From the NCBI GenBank assembly GCA_028822935.1, contig JAPKCM010000023.1:1-64000 (forward strand): a stretch of 64,000 bases of DNA. The letters are read 5' to 3'. Position 1 is the first letter of the stretch, and every line of letters begins with the position of its first letter. Origin of the DNA: Akkermansiaceae bacterium (GTDB lineage Bacteria; Verrucomicrobiota; Verrucomicrobiia; Verrucomicrobiales; Akkermansiaceae). This document shows positions 37,840-46,574 of this stretch, piece after piece. Under the pieces are notes generated by a model. That model saw only the letters and a list, made by a program, of their open reading frames with translations, made no database searches and was not told the DNA's origin. Both the position numbers and the translations under genes were made by a program.

Positions 37840-39729
37840 TTAGCTGAGGTGGACGACTGGAACGCGGGCGGATGATGTGCTGGGATCGCCGAGGGCGATT
37901 GCGCCCGAGCGGAAGTGGTTACCGTCGGGTTCTGGGGGAGAAAGTTCTTTCGCTTCTGCAGGGCTGCAAGTGGTGAGCTTGAGGGAGCGGTTGGGGGCGC
38001 CTTTGAGGCGGAGCTGGTGGGCGATGCGGCCCATCGTCCAACGGGCGTTGAGTTCGACGACGGGTTGCCATTTGGCGGAGCCATCGGGGCCGCGGTAGAA
38101 GAAGGAGTCGAGGCAGAGGGGGCCATGGTAGTCGTCTTCGCTCAGGAGAGTTTCAAGCGCGGGCATGAGGTCTTCTTTTACCGAGGGGAAGACGACTTGA
38201 TTGAGGAGGCTGGCGAGTTCGGGGGTGAGACCTTGCGATGGTTTGGCACGGGACTCGGAGCTGAGCCATTGGCCATCGCGGGAGGTTTCCTGGTGGACGA
38301 TGCCGATGGAGCGGAGGCCGCCTTCGTGCTCCGGGTTGCGTTGGAAGAGGAAGGAGATCTCGTGGATTTTCTCGAGCCAGGGTTCGATAAGGAGAGGCTT
38401 TTTCGGGAGCTGATCGACGGTTTCTTTTGTGAAGCGGTGGATGCCTCGTCCGGCAGCTCCGTGGAGTTCTTTGGCGACCCAGTTTTCGAAGGGGTGAAGA
38501 GCGATAAAATCGGAGGTTTCGTTTTGGCAGAGCTGCGAGGGGATGGGGACGAGATGCTCGGGAAGAAGATCGCGTAGTCTCAAGGTGGCGGACTTGGAAA
38601 GGAGCGGGGAGAGTTGAGCCCAAGGGCGGATGAAGCGGAGTTTACGGTCCTTTTTGAGGGCTTCGATTTCGGAGAGCGGGGCGACTTCGGGGAAGGTGAG
38701 GCCAAAGCGGGCAAGGTGGTCGCGCTGGGCGTCATCGGGGAGACGTCGCATGAGCATGATGTCGTCTTGCGAGGGGGCGGCGAGGGCGAAGGCGGGTTCG
38801 AGATCGGCTGCGAGTTCGTTCAGCTTGCGTGGACAGGTCCAGCCGGGTTGGGCGAATTCGATTTCGGCAAAGGGATTGAAGTAGCAAAGATCGGGGGAGC
38901 GTCCGCGCGAGGATTGGTAGCGCTTCAGGGAGGCAATAAAATCTTCACTCAATCCGGCTTTGTGGCGGCCTTCTTCGTTAAAGGGAGTGACGCCCTTTGC
39001 GCGGATCGGTGAGACGGGGAAGTGGAGTTGTTTGTGCCAGGCGTCCCAGTCGGTCTGCGATTTTTCCTTCCATCGGCGGAGCCACTTGATGCCGAGGCCG
39101 ACGTGGGCGATCTCATCTTGGTAGACGGTGTGGAGGATTTTTGCGCTCTTGGTATCACCGAGATTATGAAGAACTTTGGAGTAGTAGTGCGCGTAATCGA
39201 GATTGGCCTGCTCGAAGGTGAGGGAAAGCCGCGCGACGTAATCGAGCGGGCTTTCCATATCAGCGATATGTTCCCAGATCATGGGGCTCACGGGAAGGTC
39301 GCCGAATTGGATGCCGCATTCCTGCATGCGCTGGACATACCACTTGGTGTGGTTTTGCTCCTCCTTAAGGGTGTGGAAGACGCCCTTCCGAAACGAGTCC
39401 GGTGCGTCGGGGAATTTTAAAAGGGCGAGCGCCATGAGCTCGACCGCGAGGAGTTCGTGATTGGCGAAAAAGTGGAGGAGGGTGGCGCGCTGTTCTTCGT
39501 TCGCGAGTTGCTGGGCGCTCGGGAAGCGGTTTTTATGCTGAGTCTTGTAGGGGATGAGATCGGCTGGGCGACCGGGAAGATCCGGTGCGCGGTAGCTGCC
39601 GCGCTGGGGAGGGTCGAGCGTGAGCGACTTAGGCGCGTGGGTGAGCTTCTCCTCCAGGGAATTGGAGAGGAGAATGCGCTCGGCGAATTCGCGGACTGAC
39701 TGGGGCTCGGTGATGAACGGAGAGAACAG
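37840..39729 (-). CDS. ferritin-like DUF455 protein fused to an ATP-grasp domain
   Basis: Coding clearly starts before the ATG at 39435: codons between 39435 and 39729 encode family sequence (VREFAERILLSNSLEEKL, then HFFANHELLAVELM). From 39729 down to 37840 there would be about 629 residues. There is no ATG, GTG or TTG in frame from the upstream TAA to 39435, so the start given is a CTG. The N-terminal part is the DUF455 ferritin-like helical bundle (YQDEIAHVGLGIKWL, with His/Glu metal-type residues). The C-terminal part looks like ATP-grasp (HPFENWVAKELHGAAGRGIH, PLLIEPWLEKIHEISFLFQR, VVELNARWTMGRIAHQL). Its substrate is unknown; ligation of an amine or carboxylate by an ATP-grasp is an inference. 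Confidence 0.72.
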   Translation of the reverse strand: MFSPFITEPQSVREFAERILLSNSLEEKLTHAPKSLTLDPPQRGSYRAPDLPGRPADLIPYKTQHKNRFPSAQQLANEEQRATLLHFFANHELLAVELMALALLKFPDAPDSFRKGVFHTLKEEQNHTKWYVQRMQECGIQFGDLPVSPMIWEHIADMESPLDYVARLSLTFEQANLDYAHYYSKVLHNLGDTKSAKILHTVYQDEIAHVGLGIKWLRRWKEKSQTDWDAWHKQLHFPVSPIRAKGVTPFNEEGRHKAGLSEDFIASLKRYQSSRGRSPDLCYFNPFAEIEFAQPGWTCPRKLNELAADLEPAFALAAPSQDDIMLMRRLPDDAQRDHLARFGLTFPEVAPLSEIEALKKDRKLRFIRPWAQLSPLLSKSATLRLRDLLPEHLVPIPSQLCQNETSDFIALHPFENWVAKELHGAAGRGIHRFTKETVDQLPKKPLLIEPWLEKIHEISFLFQRNPEHEGGLRSIGIVHQETSRDGQWLSSESRAKPSQGLTPELASLLNQVVFPSVKEDLMPALETLLSEDDYHGPLCLDSFFYRGPDGSAKWQPVVELNARWTMGRIAHQLRLKGAPNRSLKLTTCSPAEAKELSPPEPDGNHFRSGAIALGDPSTSSARVPVVHLS

Positions 39730-43141: not shown

Positions 43142-43924
43142 ATGATGAAATGTAAAACAATCGCCACTTTTGGAATTGGAACTTTTTTAGCAATGACTGG
43201 AATTCACGCGCTCGCCTCCGAGAAGCTTGTCACAGAAGATGGCAAGGTCGCCGCCAAGAAGCTCAAGCTCGATCAGGAGCTTGCCGATAAAAAATACGAA
43301 ACGGCCACCTTCGGGATGGGATGATTTTGGGGGCCGGATTCCCAGTTTGGGAGTCTTAAAGGAGTGTTGCGGACGCGCGTGGGATATTGTGGAGGGGACA
43401 AGGAAAAGCCCAATTACTATTCGCTGGGCGACCAGACCGAAGCCATCACGATCGACTATGATCCCGAAGTATTGAGCTACGATGAGATGCTCAACCTTTT
43501 TTGGAATGGGCATCGCTGCGATCAGATCAATCGAAGTCGCCAGTATATGAATGCGGTTTTCTATCGAAACGAGGAGCAAAGGAAGGTCGCCGAAGCGTCG
43601 CTTGTGAAAGAGGCTGCTCGTCGTGGCATCTCAGTTGCTGAAGTTCAGACTGAGATTCTGCCAATGAAGACCTTTACGTATGCGGAGGGCTATCATCAGA
43701 AATACTACCTGACGCGCTTCTCGGACGTCCGGGGATTCTTGAATGAGGCCTATCCGGATGCCAAGAGTCTCGCCGATTCCACGGTCGCGACCCGGCTCAA
43801 TGCTTATCTCGGCTCAGGGATGGATTTGGACTGGAAAATATTCCTCAAAGAGCTGCCCAAGTATGGGCTCTCGGAGGAGCTGGAAAGTCTCCTGACGAAA
43901 GCTGCCAAGAGACAGATCAATTAA
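43142..43924 (+). CDS. msrA: peptide-methionine (S)-S-oxide reductase with in-frame TGA (putative selenocysteine)
   Basis: Reading through the TGA at 43322-43324 (codon 61) gives 260 residues. A signal peptide (ends GIHALA) is followed by ATFGMG-[TGA]-FWGPDSQFG. In MsrA proteins the TGA position is the catalytic Cys of the GCFWG motif. After it the family sequence is intact: GVLRTRVGYCGG, YSLGDQTEAITIDYDPEVLS, MNAVFYRNEEQRK and KTFTYAEGYHQKYYLTR. Nothing else is disrupted. The simplest reading is selenocysteine insertion, as known for some MsrA proteins in other organisms; a nonsense mutation is the alternative. The enzyme repairs oxidised methionine, here probably in the periplasm. The start at 43142 is the first of two adjacent ATG codons. 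Confidence 0.85.
43336..43356 (+). promoter_or_regulatory. candidate bacterial SECIS hairpin in msrA
   Basis: GATTCCCA (43337-43344) pairs with TGGGAGTC (43348-43355), with one G-U wobble, and a further G-U pair closes 43336/43356. The apical loop is GTT (43345-43347). The loop begins 20 nt after the TGA at 43322-43324. Bacterial SECIS elements have an apical loop with an early G at 16-37 nt from the UGA, so the geometry fits. Confidence 0.6.
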
Positions 43925-45909: not shown

Positions 45910-46305
45910 TTAGAAATCGGGACGCAGGATGTTTACTTCGTCGATGTGATCAAAATGGTGATCGGAGGTGAGGATCCAGGCTTCTTCCGCAATTGCGCAG
46001 GTGGCAATGGCGAGATCGGTGAGGGGAAGAACTCGTCCTTTTCGGTCAAGCTGCCACGCTCTTTTCCACGTTTGGTCCCATGTCATGACACGGGTGGGAG
46101 CGAAGCGCATGAGATCAAAAAACGACTCCAGCTGAGCTCGGGCCTTGAGGGATTTGATGCCACGGAGGACCTCGGCTTTGACTACTCCACAGGTCACGAG
46201 GTCGGTCGAGTCATAGCAGGAGAGGAGTTCGCGGACGGGATCGCGTCCGCGCTTCATGTAGTCCATGAAGACATTGGAATCGACGAGAACGGATTCCGGT
46301 TTCAT
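45910..46305 (-). CDS. vapC: PIN-domain toxin VapC
   Basis: 131 residues. The PIN motif SVLVDSNVFMDYMKRG has the first catalytic Asp, followed by VVKAEVLRGI (Glu), LTDLAIATCAI (Asp) and ILTSDHHFDHI. VapC enzymes are metal-dependent RNases, often acting on tRNA or rRNA. It overlaps vapB by 4 bp, so antitoxin is made first. All expected acidic residues are present. Confidence 0.93.
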   Translation of the reverse strand: MKPESVLVDSNVFMDYMKRGRDPVRELLSCYDSTDLVTCGVVKAEVLRGIKSLKARAQLESFFDLMRFAPTRVMTWDQTWKRAWQLDRKGRVLPLTDLAIATCAIAEEAWILTSDHHFDHIDEVNILRPDF

Positions 46306-46556
46306 TTCTTCTTTTTAGGGGAATCATTAGCGGGTTCCTCAGCAACCATGATGGCATCTGGCGAATAGTCCTCATAGAAGGCGTCTTTCAATTCATCAGG
46401 GGTCAATCCCAAGCCCTTCTTCATAAAGGCACGCAGTTTCTTGCGACGGTCCAGCTCACGCAAGGAGAAATCGATCGCTTCGGTTTTCGTTTCAAAGTGG
46501 TGAGCCTTCATGACTTCCGCCAATAGATGCTCATCAATATGTAATGTCATCTTCAT
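46302..46556 (-). CDS. vapB: VapB-type antitoxin
   Basis: 84 residues from the ATG at 46556, with MKMTLHIDEHLLAEVMKAH and KTEAIDFSLRELDRRKKL, the ribbon-helix-helix pattern of VapB family antitoxins. The C-terminal part, acidic then Lys-rich (KKKK), would wrap the toxin. An upstream in-frame GTG at 46565 lies inside the operator palindrome and is less likely. It neutralises and represses the vapBC unit. Confidence 0.88.
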   Translation of the reverse strand: MKMTLHIDEHLLAEVMKAHHFETKTEAIDFSLRELDRRKKLRAFMKKGLGLTPDELKDAFYEDYSPDAIMVAEEPANDSPKKKK

Positions 46557-46574
46557 GCCATACACGGTATGGCA
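46556..46574. promoter_or_regulatory. vapBC operator palindrome
   Basis: Perfect inverted repeat TGCCATAC (46556-46563) and GTATGGCA (46567-46574) with a 3-nt spacer. It directly abuts the vapB start codon, the usual place for autoregulation by the VapBC complex. Confidence 0.75.

Follow-up and report, generated by a model that had tools for sequence, protein, structure and literature searches.

Methionine-S-sulfoxide reductases (MsrA) carrying selenocysteine (Sec) are an established family of bacterial selenoproteins (PMC13188914, PMC9312934), and a 2008 count in ocean metagenomes arrived at nine selenoprotein MsrA sequences (PMC2398784). Among solved structures, the nearest to the protein described here, by sequence as by fold, are those of the Clostridium (Alkaliphilus) oremlandii OhILAs selenoprotein MsrA (PDB 4LWJ, 4LWM, 4U66; E 1.7e-48, TM-score 0.89 by target length); the titles of the matched structures name U16C mutants. 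The C. oremlandii enzyme, natively a Sec protein which exceeds its Cys form in activity about 20-fold, measures 209 residues, has no Cys, requires Glu55 for catalysis and is recycled by glutaredoxin (PMC4479559). Canonical 2- and 3-Cys MsrA (E. coli, M. tuberculosis, mammals) have the PMSR domain and the catalytic motif in common with the protein described here, but feature a catalytic Cys instead of Sec and separate resolving Cys residues, and their sequence matches stop at about residue 190-195, short of a C-terminal helical domain.

The 64-kb stretch of DNA analyzed (the window) derives from a genome of the Akkermansiaceae family (4.59 Mb, 156 contigs, 96% complete), and carries an msrA gene which almost certainly encodes a selenoprotein MsrA, with the activity predicted from sequence. 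The original prediction had described a reading frame with a single in-frame stop, a TGA which takes exactly the place of the catalytic Cys codon in an MsrA that is intact before and after it. Translation of the gene, with TGA read as U, bears this out on each count: the TGA at residue 61 is the only stop, it lies in the context ATFGMG-U-FWGPDSQFG, at the catalytic position of the GMG-U-FWG motif and within the PF01625 match (E 6e-37), and the MsrA motifs 3' of it are complete. The features of the locus are listed in Table 1. The window protein and C. oremlandii MsrA have the same catalytic Sec position, GUFWG motif and catalytic Glu, and a common fold including the C-terminal helical domain (about 38-40% identity in the fold alignment). 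The window protein differs from the C. oremlandii enzyme by a signal-like extension at the N-terminus and by two cysteines, Cys83 and Cys126, neither of them C-terminal.

Table 1. Features of the selenoprotein msrA locus and of selD in the source genome
Feature	Coordinates	Strand	Remarks
msrA selenoprotein gene	43142..43924	+	260 aa, UGA read as Sec
Putative signal peptide (MMKCKTIATFGIGTFLAMTGIHALA/S)	43142..43216	+	inferred; hydrophobic N-terminus in most verrucomicrobial orthologues
MsrA (PMSR) domain	43301..43711	+	residues 54-190, Pfam PF01625 match
TGA = Sec61, catalytic Cys position of MsrA	43322..43324	+	= Cys/Sec16 of C. oremlandii MsrA
SECIS hairpin in mRNA	43336..43356	+	9 bp stem, 43336-43344 with 43348-43356; loop GUU 43345-43347
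Glu100, counterpart of C. oremlandii MsrA catalytic Glu55	43439..43441	+	from alignment; invariant among homologues
Cys126, lineage-specific, candidate resolving residue	43517..43519	+	33/37 verrucomicrobial, 0/51 other homologues
C-terminal helical domain, common to C. oremlandii MsrA	43712..43921	+	sequence and fold comparison
selD	L103:1399-2451, genome C53	-	own in-frame TGA, LASCGG-U

The conservation of the TGA was assessed at 80 fetched loci, on which the codon was read by tblastn. Together with a survey of the family, these provided 52 distinct TGA sequences, 37 verrucomicrobial and 15 from other phyla. All the 37 distinct verrucomicrobial homologues covering the site have TGA, no other stop and never Cys, and the 15 sequences from other phyla likewise lack a second stop. 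Orthologues reside in 37 of the 195 Akkermansiaceae genomes surveyed; 36 feature exactly one TGA, one is cut off before the site, and none has Cys. In a phylum-wide sample of 388 genomes, orthologues (E <= 1e-32) were found in the window's own family only. The verrucomicrobial sequences group together in the tree, as a single all-Sec clade (support 100/100) set among lineages of mixed Sec and Cys types.

TGA at the catalytic codon is found also in homologues from Desulfobacterota, Myxococcota, Bacillota and one Planctomycetota MAG. The TGA-type MsrA of Desulfobacterota, Bacillota and the Planctomycetota MAG (L041-L044, L047-L050, L052, L053, L058, L062, L068, L078, L079) feature a covarying hairpin, mostly with a GUU loop, and the C-terminal domain, as the window gene does, but lack Cys126 and lie on separate tree branches. 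Cys-type MsrA of Bacillales, haloarchaea and Atribacterota (L045, L046, L051, L055, L056, L063 and others) belong to the same subfamily and have the C-terminal domain, but feature TGT or TGC at the catalytic codon and no consistent hairpin. Signal-like starts vary among these proteins. They are often lipoprotein-like in Sec-type MsrA of Desulfobacterota and Bacillota (L041-L044, L047, L048, L050, L053, L062, L068), and mostly missing in the Cys-type groups just named.

The TGA could represent a nonsense change in a decaying msrA, or a sequencing error. The source genome carries a second, Cys-type msrA (C72:25893-26420, minus strand, 34% identical), so that loss of the gene in the window would be tolerable. 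Against decay or misreading, the same lone TGA recurs in tens of separately assembled genomes, in proteins which differ by 20-50%, the protein is conserved 3' of the TGA, and the hairpin described below covaries. Since relatives have TGA at exactly this codon, and not random stops, a read error and decay are both implausible; with the TGA kept across Akkermansiaceae, this explanation was rejected as extremely improbable. The second msrA (L011) has TGC at the catalytic codon and a lipobox-like N-terminus.

Genes required for Sec decoding were searched for in the source genome, and selA, selB, selC and selD were all found. As the selB and tRNA-Sec models weakly match ordinary elongation factors and tRNAs, only matches above cut-off were counted. 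The selA gene (C126:126878-128224) scored 485.6 bits, above its cut-off. The selB match on C125 (278 bits, cut-off 242) lies in an ORF of 644 aa, featuring GTP_EFTU, SelB beta-barrel and C-terminal SelB-wing_3 domains. The selD gene scored 386.5 bits and has one in-frame TGA, which makes SelD of this genome probably a selenoprotein itself. A tRNA-Sec was identified at C155:1453-1541, minus strand (53.9 bits, gathering score 47), and ARAGORN called a tRNA-SeC with anticodon TCA at the same position. The window itself, on another contig, contains no detected tRNA, and no match to Rfam at gathering thresholds. Across the Akkermansiaceae surveyed, selA was detected in 35 of the 37 genomes with the msrA gene and in 35 of the 158 without it (Fisher p = 9e-17, a rough value because the genomes are related). 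The two exceptions, both with a TGA-type msrA, are G109, 86% complete and with no tRNA-Sec match above cut-off, and G060, 96% complete and with a tRNA-Sec match scoring 56.5 bits; the failure to detect selA may be due to incomplete assemblies.

UGA is decoded as an amino acid without selenium in some organisms. Accordingly, the codon could encode Cys, Trp or some other amino acid, through a reassigned code or ordinary read-through. TGA, however, is the terminator of 11 of the 34 frames in the window which span 300 codons or more from stop to stop; the full Sec machinery is present, a SECIS directly follows the codon, and homologues with a standard codon carry Cys exactly at the TGA site. Recoding without selenium is thus very improbable.

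Just downstream of the UGA, the mRNA can fold as GGAUUCCCA-GUU-UGGGAGUCU, with 20 nt between the UGA and the apical loop. Tested against published constraints for bacterial SECIS elements (PMC13188914), this hairpin fits the model (loop GUU, 9 bp, 20 nt, -11.2 kcal/mol). The constraints were passed by 43 of the 52 TGA homologues, nearly all with AGUU or GUU loops at 19-20 nt, and in most of the nine failing sequences this hairpin is present as well, with an energy close to the limit. By themselves the constraints are not specific, as they are satisfied somewhere in 24 of 36 Cys homologues too, with scattered loops. The TGA inside the selD frame is followed by a hairpin outside the bacterial model, hence SECIS rules in the source genome are not fully understood.

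Relative to dinucleotide shuffles, the 28-nt hairpin stretch of the window (-11.8 kcal/mol) has a z of -3.95, and the full 49-nt stretch beginning at the TGA gives no folding signal (z -0.41). The 28-nt stretch was picked after the hairpin had been seen, and a test with synonymous codons across relatives is therefore more reliable. Compared to shuffles which keep the protein sequence, TGA homologues reach a mean z of -1.75 at codon offset +4, where the scan peaks, versus -0.59 for Cys homologues; outside overlapping windows, no comparable signal was found elsewhere in the scanned stretch. The codons involved vary in a concerted manner. Three main codon sets were recognized among the 52 TGA sequences: CAG-TTT-GGG (11 sequences), CGG-TTC-GGG (8) and GAG-TTC-GGA (27). 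In the CAG and CGG sets the third base of the Phe codon tracks its pairing partner, giving A-U or G-C pairs, except in two CAG-TTC cases. In the GAG-TTC-GGA set the hairpin is shifted by one base in register, and has an AGUU loop. Covariation among the 22 sequences that fold in the first register, with AU/GC and UA/GC exchanges, scored 0.342 versus 0.162 in shuffled sets (0 of 500 shuffles reached 0.342), and the score drops once a strand is slid. The selenoprotein interpretation put forward in the original prediction is thus supported by the sel genes, by TGA conservation and by a hairpin directly after the codon.

The list of ORFs includes one of 186 aa starting at the GTG at 43364, and translation from this site could produce a truncated functional protein, the TGA serving as a regulatory stop. 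Such a product would lack the GxFWG motif as well as the catalytic residue, both conserved among homologues, and coding conservation continues past the TGA, reaching the upstream portion of the gene; we consider this possibility remote in the extreme. Decoding of the UGA as Sec is the reading followed below. According to this proposal, SelB and Sec-tRNA(Sec) would be recruited by the hairpin, enabling the ribosome to decode the UGA as Sec.

The N-terminus of the window protein is hydrophobic and has an AXA-like site, as judged by eye and hydropathy. Most verrucomicrobial orthologues have a hydrophobic signal-like N-terminus, and the segment in the window protein is weaker than those of its relatives. 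The signal-like N-terminus makes it likely that the protein is exported, and among the MsrA of Desulfobacterota, Bacillota (Bacillales included) and haloarchaea Sec seems to go with the exported form. The four verrucomicrobial homologues without Cys126 (L034, L035, L037, L038) all lack the hydrophobic segment, and Cys126 may therefore serve the exported form. This pattern suggests that Cys126 is the resolving residue of that form, an assignment which is a guess and about as apt to fail as to hold, if not somewhat more so.

The enzyme would thus probably be taken out of the cytoplasm by the N-terminal signal. Sec61, aided by Glu100, would attack oxidised Met residues of envelope proteins at the sulfoxide, with release of Met and conversion of Sec61 to a selenenic acid. 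The latter could be resolved by Cys126, giving a Se-S bond which a thioredoxin-like reductant of the envelope would subsequently open; alternatively, in the manner of 1-Cys enzymes, an external thiol could resolve the selenenic acid directly. We tentatively envisage, as a somewhat doubtful elaboration, an extracytoplasmic verrucomicrobial Sec-Cys MsrA, in which an internal Sec61-Cys126 selenenylsulfide would be an adaptation to repair in the envelope, where the cytoplasmic glutaredoxin that recycles the C. oremlandii enzyme would be absent.

No conserved gene partner was found beside msrA in the 28 loci compared, the most widespread neighbor being common to 13. The typA and sulfatase genes are shared with one locus. 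The neighbor found at 13 of the 28 loci is a homologue of a long protein encoded at 37840-39714 (minus strand) in the window, by eye a fusion of ferritin-like and ATP-grasp-like parts; in L017 it lies directly upstream of msrA in divergent orientation, and in the window it is separated from msrA by two genes, one a sulfatase. A frameshift suspected in this gene was rejected, as a relative aligns in one frame. At 45910-46565 (minus strand), overlapping small ORFs of 131 and 87 aa resemble, by eye, a VapC-type PIN toxin/antitoxin pair.

The original prediction regarded the gene as a new case. No published selenoprotein MsrA from Verrucomicrobiota was found in the literature searched, which omits most subscription journals, and to this extent the claim stands; the type of protein was already known from C. 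oremlandii. The verrucomicrobial MsrA is best viewed as a known kind of protein in a new lineage, possibly variant in recycling and location. Standard annotation would label the gene in the window a truncated or broken msrA, and the covarying SECIS provides a usable signature to locate further cases. The data extend selenoprotein MsrA, with clear evidence for Sec decoding, to one family of Verrucomicrobiota. As signal-bearing Sec forms can be set against mostly cytoplasmic Cys forms, where Sec pays off becomes a testable question.
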